From Phycisphaerae bacterium (GTDB lineage: Bacteria > Planctomycetota > Phycisphaerae > Sedimentisphaerales > Anaerobacaceae), in the NCBI GenBank assembly GCA_028714255.1, contig JAQTMR010000006.1, positions 1 to 64,000 of the forward strand: 64,000 nucleotides of DNA, written 5' to 3'. Below the pieces are notes generated by a model, which made no database searches, had not been told where the DNA came from, and saw only the letters and a program-made list of their open reading frames with translations. Below, piece after piece: positions 10,618 to 27,493 of this stretch. A program made the position numbers and the translations under genes. How positions within the stretch are numbered: position 1 is the first letter of the stretch; the number at the start of each line of letters is the position of its first letter.

Positions 10618-10624
10618 AGATGAG

Positions 10625-10652
10625 ATTATAGTACCAAACCCCGGAATTGCAA
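10625..10652 (-). promoter_or_regulatory. Putative leaderless sigma-70 promoter of gpsA
   Basis: On the minus strand TTGCAA (10652-10647) is followed after 16 bases by a perfect TATAAT (10630-10625). The gpsA ATG begins 7 bases further on, so transcription would begin at or next to the start codon. The absence of a ribosome site fits a leaderless message. Confidence 0.55.
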
Positions 10653-10702
10653 CGTGTTTGCCAATTCTCGTATCCCTTTTGAAATAGTTCGACAAGCTCA
10701 CT

Positions 10703-11108
10703 ATAAATTGGGTTCGTTTGGCTTTGTTTTGGGTTTGTTTTAACCAAGTGTCCAAAGCGGTTTTCTCGTTGTAATCCATTGTTATTGCTAATGTTGCAAG
10801 CACTTGACTTTTTTTGAAATTGGGTTCGTTTTGCATAATTTACTCATTTTGATTGAATCATTAACCGCGGAGAGCGCAGAGGACGCAGAGAAAAATTAAC
10901 CACGGATGAACACAGATTTACACGGATTTTTTTCATAATGTTTAGACGTAAAACTGGCTCCTTTATTAAGGGCGGAGATGCGCGTTTGGTTGAAAAATGT
11001 AATCGTCGCTTGTCGCTAGTCTCTCGTAACTCGATGCGAGAAAAGGATTAAAAAATTTTAAATTAGCCGGTTTTGGGTGTGTGGGTAGATATGCTCTTGA
11101 TTGCAAAT
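10703..11108 (+). repeat. Composite dispersed repeat, copy A
   Basis: A ~400-bp unit made of four blocks in fixed order. Block 1 is about 10703-10862 and reads MQNEPNFKKSQ-type on the minus strand. Block 2 is 'gcagaggacgcagag ... cacggatgaacacag', about 10863-10937. Block 3 is GGCGGAGATGCGCGTTTGG, about 10956-10996. Block 4 is an AT-rich tail ending in a GATTG-like segment, about 11027-11108. The same blocks recur in the same order at 62336-62747 and in part at 12296-12465. No gene is contained. Confidence 0.65.
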
Positions 11109-11181
11109 TACCCACGTTAACTCCGCTGAAGGCAAACGCCTAATGTATCGGCAACCAATAAATAGTTAAATTGCCCAAAAA

Positions 11182-11601
11182 CTAATACAAATCGTGTTCA
11201 GATGTTACCCACAGAATACTTAATGTTCTTCCATCAACCCTAACCCCGCCCATTCTTGCTTTGTCTGTTAGGCGAAACACTTTTACTTTTTCCTCTGGGC
11301 TAACACTAATTGGGGACACTGGTTTGATTTGAGCAATTGGTATTTTTTCGTAACCTAAACCATTTTTGGGTGCAACATCTATTTGTTGCCAAGTCATTTG
11401 CCCAAGCTTATGAATGGTGCTGGCAAAAATTTCTTTTGTTGAACTGTCGCATCTTTCTAAACAATACTCACTACAATCACATCTAATATCGAAAAGCGGT
11501 TTCATAAATTGAAAATTAGGTGTTATCGTTGAATGCAGTTTAATCCCGTTTTTGCTCTGTGTTTCACGAGATTTAAATTTTTTGAGATGCCCCTTACCCA
11601 T
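11182..11601 (-). CDS. Unknown protein, probable toxin partner of the Panacea gene
   Basis: A 139-residue protein I do not recognise. Its middle has a cysteine cluster, CDCSEYCLERC (about residues 41-51), that could bind zinc. Its C-terminus has VKVFRLTDKARMGGVRVDG followed by ILWVTSEHDLY, resembling the ending of several small single-domain toxins. It overlaps the upstream Panacea-domain gene by 8 bases, the usual antitoxin-first order for Panacea (PanAT/SocAB-like) modules, which pair with varied toxins. The toxin role is inferred from this position alone. The DNA is more AT-rich than the housekeeping genes and lies between two repeat copies. Confidence 0.5.
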   Translation of the reverse strand: MGKGHLKKFKSRETQSKNGIKLHSTITPNFQFMKPLFDIRCDCSEYCLERCDSSTKEIFASTIHKLGQMTWQQIDVAPKNGLGYEKIPIAQIKPVSPISVSPEEKVKVFRLTDKARMGGVRVDGRTLSILWVTSEHDLY

Positions 11602-12115
11602 TATCAGCAGTCAATAAAGTTTTGAAGTATTTTTCCATTTCTTCGTGGCTGATAATACTATTAAGATCGGTGCTTTTCCAAGGGGCTTCTTCGTGGGTCA
11701 AATTGGCTAATTTTAAAGCCGAAAATTGACCGTATATCTCATAGACATCATTGAGAAGATGTTTTACTTTTTTGCTATAAAGACTCAAGTCAATATTTTC
11801 AGGAACAGGTAAGGGTTTATTATCATTCGCTTTGTAATTATGATAGATGTCAACTACAACTGGTCCGTAACGCCACGCTTCAATTGGGTCATCAAAAAGA
11901 GGTTCTCCATACATTGCCAAATGAAACCCTTGTGCATAATAAAGTAATTTTTGCAATTTGAGATTTGATAGACTGTCTCCGCAATCTTCATCTACTAACG
12001 AAAGAAAGTAATCCGCTATTTGTTGTGCCGTTAATTTACCCACTTTACCATCCCGCTGTTGCTTTTGAGTAATTACTATAACAATGCTATCGTCAATGTC
12101 AAGTAAAATCTCCAT
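11594..12115 (-). CDS. Panacea-domain (DUF4065, SocA/GepA-like) antitoxin
   Basis: A 173-residue protein with a clear Panacea/DUF4065 domain. The signature LSNLKLQKLLYYAQGFHLA is followed by GEPLFDDPIEAWRYGPVV and a helical tail that includes HEEAPW. The domain acts as a hyper-promiscuous antitoxin in PanAT modules and in SocA, a proteolytic adaptor for its toxin. The domain begins at about residue 28; the first ~25 residues (ending QKQQRDGKVGKL) are outside it. GGTGG lies 6 bases before the ATG. It overlaps the presumed toxin gene downstream. Confidence 0.85.
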   Translation of the reverse strand: MEILLDIDDSIVIVITQKQQRDGKVGKLTAQQIADYFLSLVDEDCGDSLSNLKLQKLLYYAQGFHLAMYGEPLFDDPIEAWRYGPVVVDIYHNYKANDNKPLPVPENIDLSLYSKKVKHLLNDVYEIYGQFSALKLANLTHEEAPWKSTDLNSIISHEEMEKYFKTLLTADNG

Positions 12116-12295
12116 AAAATTCCACCATATATTGTATAGAATCGCTTATTGTGTAGTGTGGTCTGTGCGGTAAGTATACATTGGGGGCTCTTGGGAAATT
12201 AGGTTTGTTTTGATTGAACGAAGCTCATCGTTAATAGTTCATTGTTAATTGTCGATTGATAGAGTTTATTGTTTATTGCCATAAGCAGTTTTAGT

Positions 12296-12465
12296 TTCAT
12301 AAATAGACTTTCTCCTTATTAGGGCGGACATGCGCGTTTGGTGTCAAAGTTAGAAATTTTAATAGATGTGGGTTCGGTTAAGTCATTTTAGTTGAAGGGA
12401 TAAAAAAAATTTCAAATCCGTCATTTGGGATATGCAGGTAGTTGCGATTTCGATTGAATCCTTGA
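12296..12465 (+). repeat. Composite dispersed repeat, copy B (partial)
   Basis: This holds only blocks 3 and 4 of the composite repeat: TTAGGGCGGACATGCGCGTT at about 12319, then GGTTAAGTCATTTTAG and an AT-rich tail with GTAGTTGCGATTTCGATTG. It lies in the same orientation as copies A and C. Copies A and B bracket the Panacea module. Confidence 0.55.
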
Positions 12466-12553
12466 CCCCGAAAAGTTCAAAGGGTGTAAAGATTTTGGAT
12501 TGATAATATGATGCTGCTGATAGGGTCTAAATGCTGTTACTTCCGTAAATGTT

Positions 12554-12611
12554 AAAAAGGATTGCGTAGTACTGCCGGAGGTCGGCATGAGGAAACGTAC
12601 AGTATTACGCA
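12554..12611 (-). terminator. Probable terminator of hflX
   Basis: On the minus strand a 12-bp stem TGCGTAATACTG/CAGTACTACGCA with one A-C mismatch (12611-12600 and 12574-12563) encloses a 25-base loop. It is followed by ATCCTTTTT. It lies about 95 bases beyond the hflX stop. The large loop lowers confidence. Confidence 0.45.
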
Positions 12612-12706
12612 GTACCGTGAGGGACGCAGTAGAAAAACAAGCTTCCGAACAGCAGGCAGCACAAGCGAGTAAACCAAAACCCCTGCTACAAGCGGCGGTG
12701 CTAAAC

Positions 12707-14044
12707 TTAGTTTTGGACAACTTCGAGGGTATCGGGGTGGAGCCTTTGCAGGTTGGCCAGCTGGTTTTTGCCGAGCTTGACATCAATCAGGACAGAGCCA
12801 TCACGATATTGCTCTTTTAAGACCTGGCCGTGTGCCCGCAGAAAACTTTGGACTTTGCCGTTGGATTGGCTGCTGCAGACCCGCAGCAGAACTTCGCCGC
12901 CTTTGTATTTGGCCAATACGGCCTCTGCTAACTGTTCGAGGCCGAAGGCGGTTTTGGCTGATACGCAAATCGCGTTTGGAAGCAGGGTTTGCAGGACCTC
13001 AACCTCGCGGATTCTTTTGACAACATCAACCTTGTTAAGCACTTCGATGGTCTGCTTTTGGCCGCAGCCTATCTCTTTCAAGACCGAATTGACGGCCTCA
13101 ATCTGTTTCAGCGCTTCGGGATTCGAGGCATCTATGACATGCAGGAGCAAATCGGCGTTAATGGCCTCTTCCAATGTCGCTTTGAACGAGGCGACCAGCT
13201 GATGAGGCAGGTTTTTTACAAAGCCGACGGTGTCACTCAAAAGCACCTCGGCGCCGTGAGCCGGGGCCCATTTTCTTGTTCTCGTATCGAGTGTCGCGAA
13301 GAGCCTGTCCTCGACAAGCACCCCGGCATTGGTAAGAGCGTTTAAGAGTGTGCTTTTGCCGGCGTTGGTATATCCGACGATACCGACTTTAAACAGGCCT
13401 TTGCGTCCGTCGATTTCACGAATTTTGCGTTTATCGATATCGGCGAGTTCGCGTTTGAGTTCTGTGATTCGTTTACTAACCAGTCGGCGGTCGATTTCCA
13501 ACTGCTGCTCGCCTGTTCCCCTTGTACCTATGCCGCCAACGGCGCCTGCGGTGGTTGCTCCGCCTGCGCCCGCTACGCTGTCTAAGTGCGACCACATTTT
13601 GGCCAATCTCGGGTAGGTATATTCAAGCTGGGCGAGTTCTACCTGAAGCTGGGCCTGTTTGGTTCTGGCCTTGCTGGCAAATATATCCAAAATCAATTCG
13701 CTGCGGTCGAGGACCTTGATGTTAATAATCTCTTCAAGCTCGCGAATCTGGCGAGGCGAGAGGTCGTTATCGAATATTACGACATCGGCCTTGAACCGCT
13801 TGACCCGCTCGGCAAGCTGGTCAACTTTGCCTTTACCTATATATGTAGTCGGATTTATTGTGTGGATTTTCTGCTGAAATCTATCTACGACTACCGCCCC
13901 TGCGCTTGTCGCCAGAGCCGTAAGCTCAACTAAATCATCCCCATCACCGCTGTGACTTTGCCGTCCAGCCCCCTTATGAAGGATAGCGGCAACCAAAATG
14001 GCCCGCTCTCTCCCAACTCTTAGCGTCTGCCGCAGTTTTTCCAA
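12707..14044 (-). CDS. hflX: Ribosome-associated GTPase HflX
   Basis: A 445-residue GTPase with the HflX layout. The N-terminal subdomain (about 1-180) includes NPTTYIGKGKV and FDNDLSPRQIRELE. The glycine-rich linker GAGGATTAGAVGGIGTRGTGE follows, then a coiled helix pair and the G domain. G1 is GYTNAGKST, G3 is DTVGF (in LLSDTVGFVKNLP), and G4 is NKVD. HflX binds the 50S subunit and splits stalled ribosomes, often under heat stress. The length is normal. It is apparently monocistronic, with a candidate terminator downstream. Confidence 0.95.
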   Translation of the reverse strand: MEKLRQTLRVGRERAILVAAILHKGAGRQSHSGDGDDLVELTALATSAGAVVVDRFQQKIHTINPTTYIGKGKVDQLAERVKRFKADVVIFDNDLSPRQIRELEEIINIKVLDRSELILDIFASKARTKQAQLQVELAQLEYTYPRLAKMWSHLDSVAGAGGATTAGAVGGIGTRGTGEQQLEIDRRLVSKRITELKRELADIDKRKIREIDGRKGLFKVGIVGYTNAGKSTLLNALTNAGVLVEDRLFATLDTRTRKWAPAHGAEVLLSDTVGFVKNLPHQLVASFKATLEEAINADLLLHVIDASNPEALKQIEAVNSVLKEIGCGQKQTIEVLNKVDVVKRIREVEVLQTLLPNAICVSAKTAFGLEQLAEAVLAKYKGGEVLLRVCSSQSNGKVQSFLRAHGQVLKEQYRDGSVLIDVKLGKNQLANLQRLHPDTLEVVQN

Positions 14045-14334
14045 TTGAAAAGGCCTCCTAAAACCATTTTGCCGTTTATGTTAGCACATCCTCTTATACT
14101 ACTCAATAAAATCACGCTGGGCGGCAAATTTGCGGGTTTTTCAGGCCGAAAAACGCATTTTTCAGCCCAAAAACCCTGTTTTTGCATAAAAAGCAGCCCG
14201 CAAAGATTTTTGGGCTTGAAAAAATACAAAATCTAAATTATAGTAACGATTCTTAATATTCTGGACGAATTTAATACGATGCTTTTTCCTTTGTGTTTGG
14301 TAGTTTTTTGAAGGGTTGAAAGGGTCCTTTTGAT

Positions 14335-14520
14335 ATGCTAAAAGTAAAATCGCGTACAGGTGAATCAGTTCAGCAAATGATGAGGCGCTTTAAGAAACTG
14401 TGCGAAAAAGAGGGTTTAATCAGAGATATGAAGCGTAATGCTTATTACGAGAAGCCCTCGGAGAAAAATCGTCGGCGTATCCGCAAGGCCCAGCGGGTTG
14501 CAAGTTTCAATAATTTCTAA
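14335..14520 (+). CDS. rpsU: 30S ribosomal protein S21
   Basis: A 61-residue basic protein with the S21 core: SVQQMMRRFKK near residue 12, then a Lys/Arg-rich tail with RRIRKAQR. The length matches bacterial S21 (60-70). It binds the 30S platform near the 16S 3' end and aids initiation. AAAGGG lies about 10 bases before the ATG. A strong intrinsic terminator follows within 70 bases, so it is probably a single-gene unit. Confidence 0.95.
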   Translation: MLKVKSRTGESVQQMMRRFKKLCEKEGLIRDMKRNAYYEKPSEKNRRRIRKAQRVASFNNF

Positions 14521-14562
14521 TGTAAAGGCCCTTCGCAAATTTTATCGCCCAATAATCAATTC

Positions 14563-14587
14563 GGCCGGCTTGCCCGGCCTTTTTTTT
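14563..14587 (+). terminator. Rho-independent terminator of rpsU
   Basis: A 6-bp GC stem GGCCGG/CCGGCC with loop CTTGC is followed directly by eight T residues, 43 bases after the rpsU stop. Confidence 0.85.
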
Positions 14588-14708
14588 GCGCCGGCCAACT
14601 CAGTCTTCGACAATCCCATCTGCCGTAAGGTGTCCTGTGGACTGCGGACTAATTTGCTTGCAAAACAGCTTTTAACTTACAATAATTAAATATCAATAAT
14701 CAAATTCG

Positions 14709-14794
14709 GGAGCAGTGGCTGAGCGGCTGAAAGCGACGGTCTTGAAAACCGTTTTACCCATTGGGTAACGGGGGTTCGAATCCCTCCTGCTCCG
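14709..14794 (+). tRNA. tRNA-Ser (TGA)
   Basis: An 86-base class II tRNA with acceptor GGAGCAG/CTGCTCC and discriminator G. The anticodon stem is ACGGT/ACCGT with loop CTTGAAA, giving anticodon TGA. The long variable arm is TACCCATTGGGTA, and the T loop is TTCGAAT. No CCA is encoded. Confidence 0.95.
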
Positions 14795-14906
14795 GTGATT
14801 TTCTTGTGTGCCAATCAAAGGCAACTGATTATTTTCATTGCCTAACATACCTGACTCTAAGGACATGCCGGCTTTTAATTTTCGATTTTCCTCTATTAAA
14901 AGATTT

Positions 14907-15674
14907 TTAAATCGATTCTTTTATTTTTCCAAGCAGTCTCAGCAGCCCATCAAGAATCGTCAATGGATGTGGTGGGCAGCCTGGAATATAAAGGTCGACA
15001 GGTACTATTTTGTCAGCACCGTTATTAACCTGAGGGTGGTCCGCATATATACATCCTGAGATGGCACAAGCACCAACAGCAATAACTATTTTAGGAGCAG
15101 GTACAGCCTCATAGGTTTTCTGCAAAGCAAGCCGCATATTCCCTGTAACCGGGCCCGTAATAAGCAATCCGTCGGCGTGTCTTGGCGAAGCGACGAATTG
15201 GATACCGAACCTTCCCAAATCGAAGACAACGGTACTCAAAACATTTGTGTCAGCCTCGCAGGCATTACAGCCCCCGGCAGAGACCTGTCTTAATTTCAGA
15301 GATCGGCCAAACAAACTTTTTGTCTTTTTGTCCAGGGCCTCAGCCAATTTCATTTCACTTCCGGAAAGTATCAAATCAGCTTTTGTCCCTGCTGCAAGGC
15401 GGTAATCGCGGCTGAAGTTTATGGCATCTGCGGGACATTTTTGCGTACATTGTGCACAGAACAGACATCTTGCTAAGTCGATAGTTAAAGCACCGTTTTC
15501 CTTTTTAAGAGCTGCCGCAGGGCACACATCAATGCAAAGTTTACAATCCGCGGAGCATTTGGTTTGGTCAATCGTAGGCTTTCCGCAGAATCTTTCCGGA
15601 AGTTCCGGCTTGGCCTTCGGAAACGAAATCGTTCTGTGTTTCTGCTGTAATCTTGCAAATAATGGTTTTATCAT
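14907..15674 (-). CDS. Ehr/Hyf-type complex: ferredoxin-NuoB fusion subunit
   Basis: A 255-residue fusion. Residues ~30-75 hold two [4Fe-4S] ferredoxin motifs (CSADCKLCIDVCP and CLFCAQCTQKCP). The C-terminal half is a NuoB/HyfI-like small subunit. Its four cysteine ligands for the proximal cluster are retained: CNAC, the C of GACAISG, and the C of IPGCPPHP. In Hyf and Hyc these functions are separate proteins (HyfH and HyfI). It would pass electrons between a cytoplasmic partner and the membrane arm. It is the last gene of the six-gene operon, 9 bases after the large subunit gene. Confidence 0.85.
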   Translation of the reverse strand: MIKPLFARLQQKHRTISFPKAKPELPERFCGKPTIDQTKCSADCKLCIDVCPAAALKKENGALTIDLARCLFCAQCTQKCPADAINFSRDYRLAAGTKADLILSGSEMKLAEALDKKTKSLFGRSLKLRQVSAGGCNACEADTNVLSTVVFDLGRFGIQFVASPRHADGLLITGPVTGNMRLALQKTYEAVPAPKIVIAVGACAISGCIYADHPQVNNGADKIVPVDLYIPGCPPHPLTILDGLLRLLGKIKESI

Positions 15675-15683
15675 TTTGCCACC

Positions 15684-17207
15684 TTAGAGGTCGTGCCCGC
15701 AATAAGACAAGTTGAAACTCTTGTTGCATAGCGGGAAGTCAGATATTTGCTGATTCCCCATCGCCATAGCTAAACCTGTCCAGTTATGAAAGGATGGGTC
15801 GGTAATTTTGTAATGATATAAAGAACCATTGCTGTCAGTAATGCCGACATGGCATATTTCGCCTCTCCAGCCTTCGACGAGACTTACACAAAATTTATCA
15901 GGTGCAGGCAGTTTAATATTTGTTTTTATCTGCACCTGTGGACACGTTTTTATCTGGTCAAGTATGAATGCAATCGACCTTTGTATTTCGAGCCAGCGTA
16001 CGTAAGCCCTTGCAAAAACATCTCCCGTATGCCAGCTTGAGACTGGTATTTGCGCAAAGCTATAGATGCCAGCGGGGAAATTAAATCTGCAATCGATTTC
16101 TGCGCCACAGGCTCTGGCCGGCACACCTACCAGCCCGAGTTCCCTGCACGTCTGGGGAGGGACAACGCCGGTATCTTCGAATCGAGCCAAAACTGAGGGT
16201 GTGCTCCACAGCAATTTGGCGGCGACTTCCACATCTTTTTTCAAACGTGTGAGTTTTTCAGCAAGTATATCAGAAATCCTGGGACTTATATCGAAGCCAA
16301 CCCCGCCGGGCGAAACCAGTCCTCTGCCAAAACGATTGCCGCAGATAAGGGCTGTTAAATTCAGGAAATCGCCCCGAATTCTGCCGCAAAAAGAAGATGT
16401 CGGCAAATAACCAATATCACCGGCGAGCGCTCCCAAATCGCCGGTGTGGTTGGCAAGTCTTTCCAACTCGAGCGCTATGCCGCGAAGTGATTGTACCCCC
16501 GAGGGAACCCGGCTTCCTGAGAGCGATTCTATAAGGTGACAGTATGCCGTTGTGTGACCTATTGTGGTATCGCCGGCAACGGTCTGCATATAGTACAGCG
16601 TCTTTTTGTCAGGGCCGCCTATCAGGGCACGTTCTATGCCGCGATGCTGAAACCCGAGCGATATTTCGAGATTTAATACATTTTCTCCATGACACTGAAA
16701 ACGAAAATGCCCGGGTTCAATTACCCCGGCATGCACGGGGCCAACAGCAACTTCGTGTATTTGTTCGCCTTCGACCTTGAAAAAATCCATGACAGAAGGG
16801 ACTATTTGTTCACCATTTTTCCGGCCCCAGGCGTCCCGGCCCTTAATATAGGAAGCATGGAAACGAATCGGCTTTAACCAGGGATGGCCCTGAGGTGTTA
16901 TCGCCCACTGCTCAGCTATTTCACGTTCAAACAGGTGGGCCTGGGTACAATCCGGAGTAAGCGAAGAATATTTATCCGACACCTCGGACGATAATACGGA
17001 AAGTTTGCCGGAGTTATCATCAGCAAGAACCGCATAAAGACAAAACATATCGGAACCTGACGGAGCGGCAAAAAGAGAGGCTATTCTTTGCCCTGATGCG
17101 ACAGCCTCTATGACAGAATCCCTGAATTTATTAATATGAACAACCGGAATCTGTTTAACATCAATTGACTGGCAATTATAAAATGAAATTGAGTTTGATA
17201 CCGGCAT
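15684..17207 (-). CDS. Ehr/Hyf-type complex large subunit (NuoCD-like, no NiFe ligands)
   Basis: A 507-residue fusion of a NuoC-like domain (about 1-150) and a NuoD/HyfG-like domain (about 155-507). It shares GPVHAGVIEPGHFRF, the HRGIE motif at ~189 and the C-terminal SFNLSYCGHDL with group 4 hydrogenase large subunits. The NiFe-binding cysteines are absent. The position of the first CxxC reads VAGDTTIGH (residues ~210-218), and the position of the second reads DPSFHNW (residues 470-476). It therefore should not bind NiFe or evolve hydrogen. Such proteins are known from energy-converting hydrogenase-related (Ehr) complexes, whose substrate is unknown. Confidence 0.88.
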   Translation of the reverse strand: MPVSNSISFYNCQSIDVKQIPVVHINKFRDSVIEAVASGQRIASLFAAPSGSDMFCLYAVLADDNSGKLSVLSSEVSDKYSSLTPDCTQAHLFEREIAEQWAITPQGHPWLKPIRFHASYIKGRDAWGRKNGEQIVPSVMDFFKVEGEQIHEVAVGPVHAGVIEPGHFRFQCHGENVLNLEISLGFQHRGIERALIGGPDKKTLYYMQTVAGDTTIGHTTAYCHLIESLSGSRVPSGVQSLRGIALELERLANHTGDLGALAGDIGYLPTSSFCGRIRGDFLNLTALICGNRFGRGLVSPGGVGFDISPRISDILAEKLTRLKKDVEVAAKLLWSTPSVLARFEDTGVVPPQTCRELGLVGVPARACGAEIDCRFNFPAGIYSFAQIPVSSWHTGDVFARAYVRWLEIQRSIAFILDQIKTCPQVQIKTNIKLPAPDKFCVSLVEGWRGEICHVGITDSNGSLYHYKITDPSFHNWTGLAMAMGNQQISDFPLCNKSFNLSYCGHDL

Positions 17208-17208
17208 A

Positions 17209-18684
17209 TCAATACCCCCCCATTATCACGGCAACATCGTGCAGCAGGTTGTTAACAACCGGCGGGATATATAGTCCGAGCATCAGTGTTAATGCTCCGA
17301 GCGCCAATGGTGGAAGCACGGAAATAGCGGTATCCGGGTTGTCAGCAATCTGCAGACTGTCATCTTTCCTGCCCTGAGCCATATTTAAAAAAGCGATGGC
17401 CATGCCAATAAAGATAAGAGCCAGGATAGCTAAAAAAGCAACTGCAATGCCGATTCTGCCCTGTTCAATCATTGATTTTACAATCGTAAATTCACTTAGA
17501 AAAATGCCGAAAGGCGGTATGCCGGTAATGGCAAAAAAACCTGCTATCCATATTATGCCAGTAGCAGGCATAATGGTCATGATGCCGCTTACCCTTTTGG
17601 TTGTTTTTGTTTTGTAAACAGCAAGAATATTTCCCGCCGCCAGAAACAACATCGCCTTTGTAAGCGAATGATTAACCGCATGCAGCATCGCTCCGAATGT
17701 TGCACCGGCGCCAATACCCACACCAAGCGCTAAGATTCCCATATGTTCGACACTCGAATACGCGAGCATTCTTTTATAGTCGGGCTGGCCCAATATGAAG
17801 ACAGCTGCCCAGCCAATTGATATCAATCCGAACAATACAAGCAGATCCTGGCAGAACCGTCCCAGACCCGCAGCCAGGCAAACCTGATAGCTTCTTAATA
17901 TCCCCAGGAAAGCACAATTCAAAAGTGCGCCAGACATCAACGCAGATACCACAGAGGGGGATTCGCTGTGTGCATCCGGCAGCCAGGTGTGCATCGGCGC
18001 CAGGCCCATCTTCGTGCCGTAGCCAACAAGGAAAAGCAGAAAAGCGGCCTTGAGCCACGGGACATTCAACAGATGTCCCTGCTGGAGCAAAACGCTTAAA
18101 ATCATGGATTTATCATTTGATTCAGGGGCTGAAGCGGCAATAACCATAAAAAAGTTGCCTAATAGCGCCAGGGCTATTCCAACCGAGCATATCAGTAAAT
18201 ATTTCCAGGTGGCTTCAAGAGAACGATGATGCCGATGGAAATATATCAGAGGCGCACTTGCAAGAGTGGTAGCCTCCATAGCTACCCACATCAAACCAAA
18301 ATGCTGGCTTACGGTCACAAGTGTCATTGTTGTAAGGAACGCCAGGAGACACGCACAAAAAATTGCCGCGGGCGCGTTAGTAAAAAAAATCCCCTCTTCA
18401 AAATCCTGTTCCTTTCTGCCGGATTCGCCGGCAAGATATCCAAAAGCATAGAGTGAACAGGCCAGAAAAAGTACGCTGGTTATTGTCAAAAATAAAAGGC
18501 CCGGCTTATCCAGCATAAGCCAGCCGTTCAATAGCGGATTTGCTTCCTTGTTCCAGGCAGTTATGGTTATGACCGTATGACTAACTGCCGCCGTGACAAG
18601 AATGATACGGCGAAAGATATTGCTTCGTACTATCAACGACAAAACTGCCGCTATCGCAGGAATCAACAACAAGGCATATATCAT
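17209..18684 (-). CDS. Ehr/Hyf-type complex antiporter-like subunit (HyfF/NuoN-like)
   Basis: A 491-residue membrane protein with about 13-14 helices, of the NuoL/M/N and Mrp antiporter family. The pumping residues are visible: a Glu in VAMEATTLAS (TM5), a Lys in GYGTKMGLAPMH (TM7) and PDAHSESPS next to it. It closely follows the HyfF pattern. It would carry ions or protons in the membrane arm. It lies between the HyfE-like gene (4 bases upstream) and the large subunit gene. Confidence 0.88.
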   Translation of the reverse strand: MIYALLLIPAIAAVLSLIVRSNIFRRIILVTAAVSHTVITITAWNKEANPLLNGWLMLDKPGLLFLTITSVLFLACSLYAFGYLAGESGRKEQDFEEGIFFTNAPAAIFCACLLAFLTTMTLVTVSQHFGLMWVAMEATTLASAPLIYFHRHHRSLEATWKYLLICSVGIALALLGNFFMVIAASAPESNDKSMILSVLLQQGHLLNVPWLKAAFLLFLVGYGTKMGLAPMHTWLPDAHSESPSVVSALMSGALLNCAFLGILRSYQVCLAAGLGRFCQDLLVLFGLISIGWAAVFILGQPDYKRMLAYSSVEHMGILALGVGIGAGATFGAMLHAVNHSLTKAMLFLAAGNILAVYKTKTTKRVSGIMTIMPATGIIWIAGFFAITGIPPFGIFLSEFTIVKSMIEQGRIGIAVAFLAILALIFIGMAIAFLNMAQGRKDDSLQIADNPDTAISVLPPLALGALTLMLGLYIPPVVNNLLHDVAVIMGGY

Positions 18685-18688
18685 AATA

Positions 18689-19333
18689 TCAAACTTTCAA
18701 TCTCGATAACTGGTCCGTGTCTATATGGTCAAATTCACGGTTAATGTGAAACATAGTGATACCCATTACAAAAACAGCCACAAAAACATCCAACAGGATA
18801 CCGAGCTCGACAAGGACAGGCTGTTTTTGGACTAAAGCGACTCCGAAAGTGTATATCCCGTTTTCCATCACCAAATAACCGAGTACCTGAGTCACAGCTT
18901 TTTTTCGGCTGATTATAAGAAACAACCCCGACATAATCGTAAAAAAGGCGACCGGAACAATCAGCGTGGACATTGCTGCAACAGGTAACGGCAGACGCGA
19001 ACCAAGCCACATACATATTACAAGAATTACCATCCCCAAAGCTATTGAGGTTCCATATCCAATTAAAGGCTCGACTTCCCGCTGAGTCTTTAAATCTCTC
19101 AATGCTCTCGTAAGCAACCACGGAAAAACAATTCCCTTTAAGCTGATTATGGCTGCAGAAAAAAAGACGAGATGTAATTCCAAACTCCACCCATTCAATA
19201 AAAGCGGCAATAAGCCCAGCACCACCCCCTGTACCGCTACAATACGAATACATGTCCCCAATCTGCTTAAACCAAGCAGTGTAAGATTGGTAAGCACAAG
19301 AAATATCATGATGGTATCCGCGGCGTTGTTCAT
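18689..19333 (-). CDS. Ehr/Hyf-type complex subunit HyfE-like
   Basis: A 214-residue protein with about six transmembrane helices. Its length and position are those of HyfE, a NuoK-related subunit fused to extra helices. The C-terminal portion with VTQVLGYLVMENGIY holds the NuoK-type membrane glutamate. The gene begins 4 bases after the NuoH-like gene ends. Assignment rests on the gene order and on this motif. Confidence 0.8.
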   Translation of the reverse strand: MNNAADTIMIFLVLTNLTLLGLSRLGTCIRIVAVQGVVLGLLPLLLNGWSLELHLVFFSAAIISLKGIVFPWLLTRALRDLKTQREVEPLIGYGTSIALGMVILVICMWLGSRLPLPVAAMSTLIVPVAFFTIMSGLFLIISRKKAVTQVLGYLVMENGIYTFGVALVQKQPVLVELGILLDVFVAVFVMGITMFHINREFDHIDTDQLSRLKV

Positions 19334-19337
19334 AAAA

Positions 19338-20249
19338 TTACCTTAAAATCAATACCAGAGCTAAAATTGAAAGAGTTGTCGCCCCAATTAGAAGCTGGGG
19401 CACATGCAGCAGTTTTAATCTTGCCATTGAAGATTCGATTACGCCTATGACTATCGCAAGAAGTATCATAAAAAGCATCGCTGCCGAGATATCAAATAAC
19501 GCATTGCCGCTATGTACCGGAACAACAATACCAATAAGTATCGCACCGAGAAGCCACATTTTTATAGCGGCTCCGTAAAGAATCATTGCCAAATCCGGGC
19601 CGCTATGGTCAAGTATCATAACCTCATGTATCATTGTCAGTTCAAGGTGCGTATTGGGATCATCGATTGGTATCCTTGAATTTTCCGTTAAAAAGACAAT
19701 CAGAATGGCAAAGCCAACCAGTACAAAGGCCGGCCCGGCGTTTAACCAAACACTGAGATTGAGTGATGAAAACATCTGTGAAAGAGAAATATAACCTGTG
19801 TATTTTGCGATAGCTGCAAGCCCTATGAGCAACGCCGGTTCAGAGAGCGTAGAGAATGTCACTTCCCTGCTGGCGCCCATTCCTTCAAAACTTGAACCAG
19901 TATCCATCGCCATTAAAACTGTGAAAAACCGCGAGAGACCAAAAAGATAGGCAAACAAAATCAAATCCCCTTTGAAGCTGATAACAGCAGGCAGCCCTCC
20001 AAAAGGAATGAGTGCCGCAGCGATTAAAGCAACGGAGAGACCAATCACCGGGCCGACGCGGAATATCCACGAAGTTGAGCGGCTGTAAACTGCCCCTTTG
20101 CGTAAAAGTTTCCATATATCATAATATAGCTGCAATAAAGGTTGTCCCGTTCTGCCCGCGAAGACAGCTTTTGTTCTGTTAATGATGCCAAGTAACAGCG
20201 GCGCTGCAGCAAGTGCAATAACCATATTGAGTAACTTCAAGATAATCAT
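19338..20249 (-). CDS. Ehr/Hyf-type complex subunit HyfC/NuoH-like
   Basis: A 303-residue membrane protein of the NuoH/HyfC/EchB family with about eight helices. The diagnostic acidic stretch is ENSRIPIDDPNTHLELTMIHE (about residues 190-210), which in NuoH lines the E-channel between the redox and pumping modules. The retained acidic residues suggest that energy coupling is intact even though the NiFe site is lost. It starts 4 bases after the HyfB-like gene. Confidence 0.9.
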   Translation of the reverse strand: MIILKLLNMVIALAAAPLLLGIINRTKAVFAGRTGQPLLQLYYDIWKLLRKGAVYSRSTSWIFRVGPVIGLSVALIAAALIPFGGLPAVISFKGDLILFAYLFGLSRFFTVLMAMDTGSSFEGMGASREVTFSTLSEPALLIGLAAIAKYTGYISLSQMFSSLNLSVWLNAGPAFVLVGFAILIVFLTENSRIPIDDPNTHLELTMIHEVMILDHSGPDLAMILYGAAIKMWLLGAILIGIVVPVHSGNALFDISAAMLFMILLAIVIGVIESSMARLKLLHVPQLLIGATTLSILALVLILR

Positions 20250-20253
20250 TATG

Positions 20254-22233
20254 CTACATCATCTTCCATATTAAAAGTATACCCAGTGTCAGAGCGATAT
20301 ATAAAACATATATCTGAAGCCGGCCATGCTGGAACCATCGCAGTTTCGAAAGCAATAAACTGATCCATTTATACGCAGGCTCATACATATACTTTTCACT
20401 AATATCCGATGTGTCCGTATGGAAAGCAGATTGGACGGGGAAAACACCTTTTGGATGCGAAATATCTTTACGGGTTCGCAGGAAAAGCTTGAACAGGTCC
20501 GTAAGAGGCTGAGCGAACGAAGTAGCCGTGTACTGCATCTTTGGGCCCGGCTGAGCATAGCCGCAATCCCAGGTCACCGTCTGTCTGACACAGCGGCCGC
20601 TAAGCAGCAGTTTACGCAAAACCGTGAAAACACCTATAATTCCAAAGAGGATTAATGATACAAAGACAAAATTCCACAATACTGTCGATGCAGATGCAAG
20701 CTCGGCCTGAACATCTGGAAACGTGAGCAAGGTTATTTCTAAAATGACGTTTTCCGCAGATTTTATTACAAGCGGCGAGAATATTCCCAGGAGTAAGCAG
20801 AGAGCCGCAAGAGTTACCATCGAAAATTTCATACCCGGCCCAACCTCGTGAGCCTGTTGTGCGTAATCACTTCGCGGATGGCCAAGAAATATTACACCGA
20901 ACGCCTTTGTAAAACAAGCTAACGCCAGTCCGCCAATAAGAGCAAGGGCGCCTATTACAATCAGAGCAGGAATTACTGCTTCAAGTCCTCCACCCATGCC
21001 GTTCTTGAAAACTCCGAGATAAATCAGGAACTCGCTGACAAAACCATTTAGAGGAGGTAATCCGCAAATCGCTATAGAGCCAATAAGAAAAGTAAAGGCT
21101 GTCCATGGCATACGCTTAATAATCCCGCCGAGTAAATCTATATGTCCTGTTTTGCAACTGTGCAAAACCGCGCCGGCGCCTAAAAAAAGCAGTCCTTTAA
21201 ATACAGCGTGATTTATCACATGAAACAACCCGCCGGCAAAACCAAGGACCGCAAGAATTGGCGAATTCATATTGATGCCTAACAAGCCGACACCTAAGCC
21301 AATGGTTATAATGCCGATATTTTCGACACTGTGATAGGCCAAAAGACGTTTCAAATCATGTTGTGCAAGTGCGAAAAGTACACCAAGAACACCAGATACA
21401 GCGCCAATTAAAATCAACACCCAACACCACCAGGCAGGAGGAAACCCCAAAATAGTTAAGGCCCTGACTAAACCGTAGATGCCGGTTTTTATCATAACAC
21501 CGCTCATAACCGCGGAAACATGGCTGGGCGCCGCTGGATGGGCATAAGGCAGCCACACATGCAGGGGCATAAATCCAGCTTTCGTGCCAAAGCCAACTAT
21601 TGCCAACATAAATAAGACATTGGCCAGCGACGACGGCACACCTGAAATTTTATCAAAATCCAGCGAACCTGCGTGGTGACCAAGTAAAATAAAAAAAACG
21701 ACAAGAAACGCTGTTCCGATATGCATTGCGATAAGATATATCAAGCCGGCCTGACGGACCGTCTGCCGTTCATATTCAAATGTAACAAGAAAGAAAGAAG
21801 AAAGTGACATTATCTCCCATGCAACCAAAAACAATAAACCATTTCTGGCAACAACCACCAGCGCCATTCCTATCAATAGCAAGTTGTAAAAAAACCATGG
21901 GGCTCCAAGATTTTTCTTTTCTCGATATGCCAAAAGATACTCGGCTCCATAGACAGCAGCGATGGCCGATAATCCGAATATTGGTATTAAAAATACTGCT
22001 GATATCGCGTCTATCTGAACAAAAAACGAACCGAAAGGTATGTTCCAATTCAAACGAAATGATTCTGTAACGCCATGCAAAAACACCTTAAAGGCTGGAA
22101 TAACAGCGGTAATACTGCCGGCGACAGCACCCGCAGCACCAAAAAAAGACGCCAAACCTGCCCTTCGGCCGTTGATGAGTGAAGCCAAACCACCAACGAA
22201 TATAATTACCAGGCCCCAAAGAAAAAGTGACAT
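20254..22233 (-). CDS. Ehr/Hyf-type complex antiporter-like subunit HyfB/NuoL-like
   Basis: A 659-residue protein with about 14-16 helices and the HyfB form of the NuoL/M family. The pumping residues are visible: Glu in VAWEIMSLSSF (TM5), Lys in GFGTKAGFMPLHVW (TM7), then LPYAHPAAPSHVSAVMSG, and the loop HDLKRLLAYHSVENIG. The final ~120 residues are an extension ending in one more helix, as in HyfB. It is the first structural gene of the operon and its ATG is directly adjacent to the stop of the regulator gene, so the two are probably translated together. Confidence 0.9.
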   Translation of the reverse strand: MSLFLWGLVIIFVGGLASLINGRRAGLASFFGAAGAVAGSITAVIPAFKVFLHGVTESFRLNWNIPFGSFFVQIDAISAVFLIPIFGLSAIAAVYGAEYLLAYREKKNLGAPWFFYNLLLIGMALVVVARNGLLFLVAWEIMSLSSFFLVTFEYERQTVRQAGLIYLIAMHIGTAFLVVFFILLGHHAGSLDFDKISGVPSSLANVLFMLAIVGFGTKAGFMPLHVWLPYAHPAAPSHVSAVMSGVMIKTGIYGLVRALTILGFPPAWWCWVLILIGAVSGVLGVLFALAQHDLKRLLAYHSVENIGIITIGLGVGLLGINMNSPILAVLGFAGGLFHVINHAVFKGLLFLGAGAVLHSCKTGHIDLLGGIIKRMPWTAFTFLIGSIAICGLPPLNGFVSEFLIYLGVFKNGMGGGLEAVIPALIVIGALALIGGLALACFTKAFGVIFLGHPRSDYAQQAHEVGPGMKFSMVTLAALCLLLGIFSPLVIKSAENVILEITLLTFPDVQAELASASTVLWNFVFVSLILFGIIGVFTVLRKLLLSGRCVRQTVTWDCGYAQPGPKMQYTATSFAQPLTDLFKLFLRTRKDISHPKGVFPVQSAFHTDTSDISEKYMYEPAYKWISLLLSKLRWFQHGRLQIYVLYIALTLGILLIWKMM

Positions 22234-22944
22234 TTAACTTTTTCCTCCGGTCTCTAAAACAGCTTGATTTTGTTTCAGGCCGGACTCTATCCGAGATATT
22301 TCAGAGAAAATCTCATCCCGGCTGCCCTGATTCTTTATAACATTTCTGAAGCCTTTATCACGTAAGGCATAAGCCAATCTGGAAAGCAAATACAGATGTG
22401 TTTTGACAGTAGGGCTTATAAGTGTAAAAAGGCAGTTTACCAGTTTGCCATCGAGAGAATTAAAATCAATTGGTTTTTCAAGAAAACACAGTGAAACAAT
22501 AGGTTCGGTTATATGTAAAACTATTGGATTACGGACATGTGGTATGGCTATTCCATCACCAATCGCAGTAGAAGCCATGGCTTCCCGTGCCAAAAGAACC
22601 TGTAAAAGAAACTCTCTATCTACTTCCGGCGGCAGCTTCATGAGTTCAACAACGCTTTTTATAGCGGATTTTTTATTCTCGCCTTCGGTACGGTAATATA
22701 TTCCACCAAAGGTCAGTGCATCCGATAAGCTGTGCATTGGAACCTGTAAGTTTTCCGGTTCATGGAATATATCTGCTGAAACATTGATTTGGCGGGATGT
22801 TACCCATTCGAGCAGTTCAGCCCGGTTGAAACGGTAATGGTCACCAACCCTATAAACGGGTAGTTCACCTTTTTTCAACCATCTATAAATCGTTTTCTCA
22901 TTTACCTTTAGCAAATTTGCTACATCTTTTACAGTAAGTTGCAT
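22234..22944 (-). CDS. Helix-turn-helix/PTS-EIIA fusion regulator
   Basis: A 236-residue protein. Residues 1-55 form an excisionase/MerR-like DNA-binding domain (TVKDVANLLKVNEKTIYRWLKKGELPVYRVG). Residues ~85-225 form a PTS EIIA domain of the fructose/PtsN type. The expected phosphorylation His is His136 in GDGIAIPHVRN. I start it at the ATG at 22944, which has AAGGCGAG upstream; the 26 upstream codons overlap three direct repeats that look like an operator. It sits immediately before the Ehr-like operon and is probably its regulator, with phosphorylation as the input. Confidence 0.85.
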   Translation of the reverse strand: MQLTVKDVANLLKVNEKTIYRWLKKGELPVYRVGDHYRFNRAELLEWVTSRQINVSADIFHEPENLQVPMHSLSDALTFGGIYYRTEGENKKSAIKSVVELMKLPPEVDREFLLQVLLAREAMASTAIGDGIAIPHVRNPIVLHITEPIVSLCFLEKPIDFNSLDGKLVNCLFTLISPTVKTHLYLLSRLAYALRDKGFRNVIKNQGSRDEIFSEISRIESGLKQNQAVLETGGKS

Positions 22945-22958
22945 AATTCTCGCCTTGT

Positions 22959-22998
22959 GGACATTTATATCTATTAATAGGACATTTTGGGACATTTT
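22959..22998 (-). promoter_or_regulatory. Three phased direct repeats, candidate operator
   Basis: Three copies of GGACATTT (plus strand) begin at 22959, 22980 and 22990. The spacings of 21 and 10 bases correspond to about two and one helical turns, so all copies lie on one face of the DNA. They sit 15-55 bases upstream of the HTH-EIIA start codon, where an autoregulatory site would be expected. Confidence 0.5.
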
Positions 22999-23113
22999 AC
23001 ATAAAAAGGCATAAATCGTCAAGCTTATTTTGCTATAGTTTCAATAAATACGAATGAAATCGCCGATTCCATGGCTTGCTTGAACAGCTTCCGCTATACC
23101 ATATCCATTTAAA

Positions 23114-24229
23114 TCAGTTCATTAACTTAATAAACTGTTCAAAGAGATACTGTGAATCGTGCGGGCCGGGAGAAGCTTCGGGGTGGTATTGAACCGAAAA
23201 AGCAGATAACTTCTTAGATATTATGCCTTCATTGGTATTATCGTTAAGATTGACGTGGGTAACCTCGATGCCTTTGCCTTTTAGAGAATCGACATCGACA
23301 CAAAAGCCGTGGTTCTGGCTGGTTATTTCAACTGCACCCGTCAACAGGTTTTTAACCGGATGGTTCGCGCCTCTGTGGCCGAACTTGAGCTTGTAAGTTT
23401 GTCCGCCGAGAGCAAGGCCAAGTATTTGATGGCCGAGACAAATTCCGAATATGGGCAGCTTACCGAGAAGATTTTGAACTGTTTCTATAGCATAGCCCAA
23501 AGGCGCCGGGTCACCGGGGCCGTTGCTTAGGAAAACGCCGTCCGGCTTCAGGCGGAGAACTTCTTTTGCCGAAGTGGCAGCCGGGACAACCTGTACTTCA
23601 CAGCCGTGCGAACAAAGTAGTCTGAGAATATTATGTTTTATGCCGAAATCGAAGGTTACGACCTTGTATTTTTTTTCGGTTTTCCACTCTGAGCCAGTCA
23701 ATACATTTACAACGCCATCGTTCCAGCTGTAAGTTTTTCCGGCAGTTACGTCTTTAACTATGTCCCTGCCAACAAGGCCGGGGTAATCCCGGAGTTTTTC
23801 TTTTAGTTTATTTATATTCAGCTCTGTCGATGAGATAATTCCTCTCATCGCCCCTTTGGTTCGGATATGCTTAACCAGCTTTCTCGTATCAATCCCCTCG
23901 AGGCCGACGACATTGTTTTTCTGCAAATACTCACCAAGGGATATTCCGCTTCGCCAATTGCTCGGATACGGGCAGTTTTCTTTGACGATAAAGCCGCTGA
24001 CGAATGATTTTCTCGATTCCGAATCCTCGCTGTTGGTGCCGTAGTTGCCAATCAGCGGATACGTCATCGTTATTATCTGCTCATTATAAGATGGGTCGGT
24101 CAATATCTCCTGATAGCCTGTCATGCTCGTATTAAAAACGACCTCCCCGCACTTTTGGCCTTCGGCGCCAAAAGAATTGCCTTCAAAAACCATACCATCT
24201 TCAAGCAGCAGAATAGCTTTCAAATCCAC
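23114..24229 (-). CDS. carA: Carbamoyl-phosphate synthase small (glutaminase) chain
   Basis: A 371-residue CarA. The N-terminal CPSase small-chain domain has MTGYQEILTDPSY. The C-terminal class I glutamine amidotransferase domain holds the nucleophile Cys in FGICLGHQ and the His/Glu pair in QYHPEASPGP. It releases ammonia from glutamine for CarB. The length is typical. It is the last gene of the long nitrogen operon and starts 2 bases after carB ends. carB before carA is the reverse of the common carAB order. Confidence 0.96.
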   Translation of the reverse strand: MDLKAILLLEDGMVFEGNSFGAEGQKCGEVVFNTSMTGYQEILTDPSYNEQIITMTYPLIGNYGTNSEDSESRKSFVSGFIVKENCPYPSNWRSGISLGEYLQKNNVVGLEGIDTRKLVKHIRTKGAMRGIISSTELNINKLKEKLRDYPGLVGRDIVKDVTAGKTYSWNDGVVNVLTGSEWKTEKKYKVVTFDFGIKHNILRLLCSHGCEVQVVPAATSAKEVLRLKPDGVFLSNGPGDPAPLGYAIETVQNLLGKLPIFGICLGHQILGLALGGQTYKLKFGHRGANHPVKNLLTGAVEITSQNHGFCVDVDSLKGKGIEVTHVNLNDNTNEGIISKKLSAFSVQYHPEASPGPHDSQYLFEQFIKLMN

Positions 24230-24231
24230 TC

Positions 24232-27200
24232 CTAATCGTAATATTTCTGAACAGGTTTTACGCTGATTTTTCTTCGTTTCATTGCCGCGACGGCTTTTAC
24301 GACCGCAATAGCAGCCCTGATGCTTGTTACATAGGGGATTTGTTTATCAAGGGCAGTCCTTCTTATCGGAAAAGAATCTCCTACCGATTGAGCACCTGCC
24401 GTGCTATTTACGATGAGGTCGATTTTGCCGTTTATTATCCAATCGACCACGTTGGGTCTGCCCTCACTCATTTTGAGCACAAACTCCGATGGGATATTAT
24501 TGTTCACAAGCTCAAGGCATGTGCCTTTTGTAGCCACGATTCTAAAACCCATTTCATTCATTTGACGCGCCAGCTCAACGGCTTTTTTCTTGTCACTATC
24601 TTTTACGCTAAAAAGCACGTTGCCGCTCATCGGCAGGCCATTGCCGGCAGCTATCTGAGATTTTGCGAAAGCGATTCCAAAATCATCGTCTATTCCCATA
24701 ACTTCGCCGGTAGAAAGCATCTCCGGCCCAAGCAATGTGTCTATGCCGGGGAACTTCAGGAACGGAAATACCGCCTCTTTCACCGAAAAATGCTTCGGTT
24801 TTATTTCCTCTGTAAAGCCTAACTCATCCAGGGTGGCCCCTGCCATAATCTTTGTCGCAAGTTTAGCTAAAGGCACGCCAATAGCCTTACTCACAAACGG
24901 AATTGTTCTGGATGCGCGGGGGTTCACTTCGAGAATATAGATTTTGTCATCTTTTATGGCAAACTGAATGTTTATAAGGCCCTTTACTTTCAGAGCGAGC
25001 GCTAAAAGCCTGGTTTGTCTTTTAATATCCTTGAGAATTTTTTCGCTTATCGAAACAGGAGGCAGCGAACAGGCGCTATCGCCCGAATGTACCCCTGCTT
25101 CCTCGATGTGCTCCATAACTCCGCCGATGACCACTCGCTTGCCGTCGCATATAGCATCGACGTCCATCTCCGTCGCATCGTCAAGGAACTGGTCTATCAG
25201 AACAGGATGTTCGTCCGAAGCCTCGAACGCATTTCTGACAGCGGACTCGAAAGACTTCTCGTCGTAAACAATTTTCATTGCCCGGCCTCCTAATACGTAG
25301 GATGGCCGAACAAGCAAAGGAAATCCGATTTTTCGCGCTATTTTCAGTGCCTTGTCATAAGTTGTAGCGGTGCCGCTGTCAGGCTGACGCAGTTCGAGTT
25401 TCTTAACAAGATTGTTGAATCGTTTGCGGTCCTCGGCGCAGGCAATACTGTCCGGCGACGTGCCGATTATTTTTACGCCTGCTTTTTCGAGGGGGACAGC
25501 CAGCTTGAGCGGAGTCTGTCCGCCAAACTGGACTATTACGCCATCCGGCTTTTCCTTTTCGACAATCGACATAACATCTTCATAAGTCAACGGTTCGAAA
25601 TACAATCTGTCGGATGTATCGTAATCTGTGCTTACAGTTTCAGGGTTGCAGTTGACCATTATCGACTCGATGCCTATTTCCTTCAACGCGAAGGAGGCAT
25701 GAACGCAGCAATAATCGAATTCGATTCCCTGACCTATGCGATTGGGGCCGCCGCCGAGAATAACTATTTTTCTTTTATCGGTCGGGTTGGCTTCACATTC
25801 GCTCTCGAACGTCGAATAAAGATAAGGAGTATGGGCCTCGAACTCGGCTCCGCAGGTATCAACCGTTTTGTACACGGGTTCGACCCCAAGCCGAAGGCGA
25901 TGTTTCCTGAACTGTTCTTCCGATATATTCAACACAGTCGCCAGGTACTTATCGCTAAAGCCATACTCTTTCACCTGACGAAGGAAATCACTATCAAATT
26001 TATCAAGAGCAGTTGACTTTATTTTTTTCTCCAGCTTGACAATGTCGTGGATGTTATTGAGGAACCACGGGTCGATTTTCGTCAGAGCAAATATTTCGTC
26101 CGTAGAAAGTTTTCTTCTAAAAGCCTCGGCTACATACCATATTTTATCCCAGCATCTCGTCCGCAGCTTTTTCCTCAGTTGAGCTAGGCTAAGCTCGCTA
26201 TTGATATATTTTTTATCAAGCGAAAAGCGGTTTATTTCGAGCGACCTTACAGCTTTATGCAGTGCTTCCTTAAACGTTCTCCCTATTGCCATAGCTTCGC
26301 CGACCGACTTCATCTGTACCGTAAGCTCCTGGTTAGTGTTGGGGAACTTTTCAAATGTAAAACGCGGCCACTTAACCACACAATAATCAATGGTCGGCTC
26401 AAAACAGGCAGGGGTTTTCTTGGTAATATCGTTAGGAATTTCATCGAGAGTATAGCCAACCGCCAACAGGGAAGCAATTTTGGCAATTGGAAATCCTGTA
26501 GCCTTCGATGCGAGAGCGGAGCTTCGCGAAACGCGTGGGTTCATCTCTATCACATACAGTTTGCCGTTTTCGGGATTGACCGCAAACTGTATATTCGAGC
26601 CTCCGGTTTCAACTCCTATTGCCCGGATAATCTTGATGGCGGCATCGCGCATCCATTGGTATTCTTTGTCCGTCAACGTCTGAGCAGGAGCAACGGTGAT
26701 GCTGTCGCCGGTATGAATGCCCATTGGGTCGAAGTTTTCTATCGGGCAGACAATGACAACGTTGTCTTTTCTGTCCCGCATCACCTCGAGTTCATACTCT
26801 TTCCAGCCGGCGACGGATTGTTCTATCAAGACTTCGGTTTTGGGGCTCAAATCCAAACCCCAGTCAACGTACCTTTTATACTCTTCAACATTATTCGCTA
26901 TATTTCCGCCAGTGCCGCCCAGAGTATATGAGGGTCTGATGATAGCGGGGAAACCAACATATTTGATTATTTCCTGAGCCTGCTGCCAGGAATGGGCACA
27001 ACCGCTTCTGGGAACTTCAAGCCCGATATCTCCGATAATTTTCTTGAACTTATCTCTTTCTTCGGCTTTTTTAATCGCCTGCAAACTGGCCCCCAAAAGA
27101 CGAACGCCGTATTTTTTCAACACGCCGCTTTCCGCCAGCGCCACTGCGGTGTTCAGGCCGGTTTGTCCTCCGAGGGTTGGCAGCAGGCTGTCGGGCCGTT

Positions 27201-27441
27201 CTTTCTGAATTATTTTTTCGACTATCTCGGGCGTGATAGGTTCAATATAGGTTCTGTCCGCGATTTCGGGGTCAGTCATTATTGTGGCAGGATTGCTATT
27301 GACAAGCACAACCTTGAAACCTTCCTGCTTTAATACCTTGCAGGCCTGCGTGCCTGAATAATCAAATTCACAACCCTGGCCTATAACAATAGGGCCTGAG
27401 CCTATAATCAGTATCTTTTTAATATCCTTGCGCTTCGGCAT
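24232..27441 (-). CDS. carB: Carbamoyl-phosphate synthase large chain
   Basis: A 1069-residue CarB with its two homologous ATP-grasp halves. The first has [17 protein letters not shown], the second [19 protein letters not shown]-terminal MGS-like allosteric domain (about 930-1069) contains [14 protein letters not shown]. It makes carbamoyl phosphate from bicarbonate, ammonia and two ATP for pyrimidine and arginine synthesis. The length is normal and no motif is lost. It lies between nadE (52 bases upstream) and carA. Confidence 0.97.
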
Positions 27442-27493
27442 TGGTTGTTTTTGCCCCTTTTATATCACAGGTCGCGGCACTTTGCCAGCAATA

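Follow-up and report, generated by a model that had tools for sequence, protein, structure and literature searches.

Seven closely packed genes lie on the minus strand at positions 14,907–22,944 of the window (the whole 64,000-nucleotide stretch of Phycisphaerae bacterium DNA that we analyzed), separated by intergenic gaps of 0–9 bp. The first gene of the operon (22,234–22,944) encodes a regulator in which an excisionase/BldC-like HTH domain (HTH_17) is joined to a PtsN-like PTS EIIA domain, and it is followed by homologues of hyfB-C-E-F-G-I. A preliminary description of the locus had counted six genes in that order; the order held, and the regulator adds a seventh gene to the same span. Four of the genes encode membrane subunits: a hyfB-like antiporter-type subunit (20,254–22,233) that retains E140, K218, K249, K295, H338, H342, K346 and E401; a hyfC/NuoH-like subunit (19,338–20,249) with the invariant acidic residues D95, D116, E129, E137, E189, D196, E203, E209 and E272; a hyfE/NuoK-like subunit (18,689–19,333) that retains E157 and E176; and a second antiporter-type subunit, hyfF-like (17,209–18,684), that retains E137, K225, K304, K343 and E398. 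Residue comparison with E. coli Hyf showed that the antiporter residues of HyfB and HyfF, the nine acidic residues of HyfC and the two glutamates of HyfE are all conserved, confirming the earlier statement that the membrane subunits keep their pumping Lys and Glu and their E-channel acids. The operon ends with a hyfG-like large subunit (EhrL; 15,684–17,207) and a small subunit (EhrS; 14,907–15,674). Pfam E-values of the operon genes range from 1e-6 to 1e-53 and the same gene order is found in Variovorax, Rhizobium, Allomeiothermus and others; matches of this strength, together with an order common to these genomes, exclude chance as an explanation for the operon.

The large subunit resembles those of group 4 hydrogenases, and all four of its NiFe cysteines have been lost, as the preliminary description had reported. 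When aligned with E. coli HycE and HyfG, TVAGDTT falls opposite HycE RVCGICG, which puts A211 and T214 in place of the first ligand pair, and NLSYCGHDL, the exact C-terminus of the protein, falls opposite HycE DPCYSCTDR, which puts S501 and G504 in place of the second. The former L1 site is thus A211-G212-D213-T214-T215 (AGDTT; 16,563–16,577, minus strand), a motif highly conserved in Ehr, and the former L2 site is S501-YCGHD-L507 (15,687–15,707, minus strand). Of the two ligand sites proposed earlier, VAGDTTIGH was placed correctly; DPSFHNW was not, since it aligns with HycE AATYANW some 25 residues before the C-terminal site. One cysteine, Cys503, stands one position out of register; the clade of the window copy conserves it, whereas several relatives (proteobacterial, actinobacterial and from Allomeiothermus) have Ser or Ala there. 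Across 12 diverse relatives there is no variation at P165-G166-H167-F168-R169-F170, D470-P471-S472, N495-K496-S497, Y502, G504, D506 or L507, and the glutamate equivalent to MbhL Glu21 is retained (IEPGHF). An AlphaFold model of the large subunit was poor (pLDDT 50). With its NiFe ligands missing, the complex does not count as a [NiFe] hydrogenase and cannot produce hydrogen.

The small subunit joins a HycF-like 2[4Fe-4S] ferredoxin domain to a NuoB/HycG-like domain in one fused protein. It was said to keep its cluster cysteines, and all 12 are indeed present in the window copy, eight in the ferredoxin domain, whose first cluster carries a C-x3-C insertion, and four at the proximal cluster, which is of the hydrogenase type (CxxC...C...C).

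Several publications describe Ehr (energy-converting-hydrogenase-related) complexes as having group 4 architecture, Hyf/Ech-like membrane subunits and no NiFe ligands, and state their function as unknown (PMC7894505, PMC6349859, PMC10284858, PMC6728331); these widespread complexes were left out of HydDB as proteins that do not metabolize H2 (PMC5037454). By its gene and residue content, the complex in the window is an intact Ehr of this already published kind: the large subunit lacks both NiFe-binding CxxC motifs that a group 4a (Hyf/Hyc) enzyme would have, antiporter-like and NuoH-like membrane subunits are encoded in the same cluster, and the protein groups with cysteine-free relatives to the exclusion of hydrogenases, so that the earlier label "Ehr-like" was well founded. 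A tree built from 81 large subunits, none of them a Geobacter or other published Ehr sequence, joined the window copy and 70 other cysteine-free sequences in a single clade (71 sequences; support 100/100), sister to E. coli HycE/HyfG (support 100/99). One loss of NiFe therefore accounts for this whole clade, and these sequences indicate that a single remodeling gave the pocket its conserved pair of motifs, AGDTT and a C-terminal NKSFNLSYxGxDL. The closest named relatives are Sedimentisphaerales and Phycisphaerales MAGs (77–82% identity), and the host probably belongs to the same group. An Ehr turned up in about 51 of the 392 genomes sampled across the phylum, separated by a gap in E-value from other matches. 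Two genomes of the same genus (G001 and G002) had no close Ehr match and gave only a weaker group 4 match, which makes the presence of Ehr patchy within the genus; the match in G001 (L039) has both CxxC motifs and is a real group 4 [NiFe] hydrogenase.

The Ehr of Geobacter sulfurreducens (GSU0739-45), of Margulisbacteria/Saganbacteria, of comammox Nitrospira and of the Mycobacterium tuberculosis Rv0081-Rv0087 region share this definition and architecture. The window operon differs from published Ehr in the HTH-EIIA regulator with a common operator at its front, in the fusion of its small subunit to a 2[4Fe-4S] domain and in a host genome without formate dehydrogenase. Its nearest NiFe-containing relatives, E. 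coli Hyf and Hyc, share with it the order of the genes, the EPGHFR loop and the residues of the membrane subunits; unlike them, the window complex has its four NiFe cysteines replaced, lacks HyfA, D and J and a separate H, has no tail past the C-terminal ligand site of the large subunit and has no formate dehydrogenase partner. Respiratory complex I (NuoB/C/D/H/K/L/M) has homologous large and small subunits, E-channel and antiporter subunits, whereas the window complex has no NADH module and no quinone-binding His/Tyr and carries a hydrogenase-like proximal cluster.

The two halves of the regulator match PtsN (EIIA-Ntr) and BldC-type HTH proteins, respectively; unlike either, the regulator fuses both halves and is tied to an Ehr operon. 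The HTH half matches PDB chains 6ama and 6amk ("putative DNA-binding protein"), which we take to be Streptomyces BldC. BldC binds direct repeats. Both EIIA histidines are retained (AIPH, KTHL), the phosphorylatable histidines of the AIPH and THL motifs are kept in 15/15 aligned close copies, and the genome encodes EI and HPr, clustered with a free EIIA on contig C7; an AlphaFold model of the regulator was poor (pLDDT 47). Among phylum loci with a visible upstream side, an HTH-EIIA gene immediately precedes hyfB in about 31 of 47 (30, or 31 with L089, which was recognized by eye). Upstream of the first gene we found a putative promoter-operator (22,959–23,022, minus strand), in which TTGAC is followed by the direct repeats TGTCC-N5-TGTCC and a third TGTCC (22,959–22,963). 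The common architecture, TTGAC-N22-TGTCC-N5-TGTC upstream of the regulator, to which several loci add another TGTCC about two helical turns further, was present with at most one mismatch in 14 of 31 EIIA-led operons, in none of 17 Ehr operons without EIIA and in 0.4% of 160-mers drawn at random from these loci. Loci that are related do not count as independent, but the matches span several families (L109, L113, L111). A relaxed pattern (TTGAC-N15-23-TGTC-N3-6-TGTC) matched once in the window against 0.04 expected, and across 143 fetched loci every match to the operator pattern except one lies upstream of an HTH-EIIA regulator. Locus L023 has a second TTGAC-N-TGTC-N-TGTC match (3353–3387), away from its Ehr operon, which may be a further target of the regulator.

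The position of the gene in the operon, the conserved histidines and the putative operator lead us to infer that the operon is regulated by the state of the PTS through the HTH-EIIA protein, and regulator and operator offer a handle that suggests which signal switches Ehr on. Two features are new in our analysis: Ehr operons across the phylum usually start with an HTH-EIIA regulator that has a conserved promoter-operator, and in some relatives an electron-transfer cluster has been lost as well. A literature search found no link between EIIA and Ehr, which is weak evidence of novelty given that most subscription journals lay outside the search.

The preliminary description had suggested that a survey of neighbourhoods might find a conserved partner oxidoreductase; none recurs in the phylum loci examined, in which the HTH-EIIA gene is the only widely recurrent neighbour. 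The host genome, which is 98.9% complete, encodes Rnf and one [FeFe] hydrogenase, gene content that points to a ferredoxin-based fermenter. It also encodes one further [NiFe] large subunit, and no other complex-I-type large subunit was found in it. A second large subunit with CxxC pairs, which had been named as grounds for rejecting the Ehr assignment, thus does exist; being an unrelated group 3b protein in its own, sulfhydrogenase-like cluster, it is not the supplier of the Ehr complex.

The reading that we favor, at a probability of roughly 0.55, is that the seven genes form an intact Ehr in which ferredoxin-fed ion translocation proceeds via the rebuilt pocket and expression is tuned by the EIIA repressor. 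As the window copy retains all clusters, ferredoxin-linked ion translocation is its most likely function as judged from the proteins encoded; the earlier proposal of an ion pump with a redox partner in place of hydrogen is plausible. A low-potential carrier such as ferredoxin would deliver electrons to the fused 2[4Fe-4S] domain and from there to the proximal cluster, and the reaction would end at the rebuilt pocket with a small ligand or acceptor. Movements of the pocket loops would then drive H+ or Na+ through the E-channel and HyfB/HyfF, possibly reversibly. Through its phosphorylation state, governed by the EI/HPr of the genome, the EIIA domain would tune a repressor bound to the TGTCC repeats, which would set expression by carbon or energy status. 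Counting against this reading, no more than about half of the operons led by EIIA have a recognizable operator.

A less probable alternative is that Ehr translocates ions, or exchanges them as an antiporter, independently of redox chemistry or under the gating of a ligand; its pocket would bind a regulatory ligand and its Fe-S clusters would be relics or sensors. This alternative draws on relatives in which proximal-cluster cysteines have been lost at three places in the large-subunit tree (at least three lineages): the small subunit on the Allomeiothermus silvanus plasmid (L045, 16,293–17,165) has none of the four left, that of L111 (1–720) has lost at least three, and those of L035 (2828–3620), L116 (from 1154) and L121 (from 15,392) share the replacement pattern D-C-D-N. 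These relatives without the proximal (N2) cluster retain the C-terminal pocket motif and the readable pump residues of HyfB, HyfF and HyfC. In addition, four genomes of one genus (L117–L120) have no small-subunit gene in the region adjacent to the large subunit, which itself retains AGDT and NKSFNLSYCGxDL, and the ferredoxin domain is missing from several Ehr of Proteobacteria. On the other side, the window copy has its full set of 12 cysteines and 59 of 66 Ehr small subunits retain all four proximal cysteines (another two are truncated at contig ends); moreover, HyfE glutamates are altered in L116 and L121, and HyfB K249 and K295 in L118 and L119, the two members of L117–L120 that were checked. 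Retention of the cluster in the window copy and in most small subunits means that the clusters matter in most members. Nevertheless, the N2-less relatives, together with those apparently without a small subunit, weaken redox coupling for the family, and relatives that keep the pump without the proximal cluster mean that redox driving is not to be assumed family-wide. A more tentative extension of this thinking, which we consider doubtful, is that Ehr is a complex-I-family machine progressively stripped of its redox centers, first of NiFe in all members and then, in several independent lineages, of the proximal [4Fe-4S] cluster or the neighboring small-subunit gene, with the rebuilt pocket and most of the path for ions retained. 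If true, redox-driven pumping would not be the conserved job of Ehr, which would instead transport ions in a ligand-driven or gated way and, in this phylum, often answer to the PTS (EIIA). The N2-less variants, one of them in the cultured Allomeiothermus silvanus DSM 9946, offer a handle on complex-I-type ion translocation without the terminal Fe-S cluster.

Acceptors known from related complexes fit the window copy of this Ehr poorly. Ferredoxin:quinone oxidoreduction of the complex I type would agree with the family fold and with the one MenA-like prenyltransferase in the genome; however, Ile and Gly stand at the positions of Nqo4 His38 and Tyr87, which bind quinone, and we found no futalosine-pathway gene and no MenD above the cut-off in the genome, so that quinone is an unlikely acceptor. 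About as improbable is reduction of sulfane sulfur (polysulfide) as in archaeal MBS. The P. furiosus complex is likewise a relative of complex I with an altered, partly lost NiFe site (PMC7684303), but it retains two of four NiFe cysteines and uses an under-coordinated, three-cysteine proximal cluster with a non-cysteine ligand, whereas the window copy has all four proximal cysteines (CxxC and two Cys) in hydrogenase spacing. Both acceptors were rejected on the absence of their signature residues.

A complex of Ehr with formate dehydrogenase, or one resembling formate hydrogenlyase, published as a hypothesis for Margulisbacteria and Geobacter (PMC6349859, PMC7894505) and in keeping with the sister position of Ehr to formate hydrogenlyase subunits, is very improbable here. 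No PF00384 molybdopterin oxidoreductase was found in the 98.9% complete genome and none recurs in the neighborhoods; the genome therefore has no Mo/W formate dehydrogenase, the formate dehydrogenase partner of group 4a enzymes is missing, and the formate dehydrogenase-Ehr model is inapplicable to it. Such a partner is refuted for this genome, unless its gene lies in the missing 1%. That the operon is a decaying hydrogenase operon, as loss of the NiFe ligands might suggest and as the preliminary description had allowed, can be dismissed: reading frames are intact, the replacement motifs are conserved over one clade of wide taxonomic spread, and dN/dS against L023, L003 and L024 is about 0.04–0.15 in all seven genes (rough values, as dS is often >1), so that every gene is under purifying selection.

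Several relatives carry rearranged or duplicated operons. The hyfF of L025 (10,237–11,752) is 35% identical to that of the window, against 61–85% for the other genes of its operon, and has likely been replaced or recombined. Two tandem hyfB-like genes, that is, an extra antiporter-type subunit, occur in L032, L034, L087, L088, L091 and L095. On a Variovorax plasmid (L043), about 3.4 kb separates two different Ehr operons (9923–17,207 and 20,619–27,803), and L121 (1562–16,200) has a tandem pair of complete Ehr operons, of which the first retains the proximal-cluster ligands and the second lacks them.
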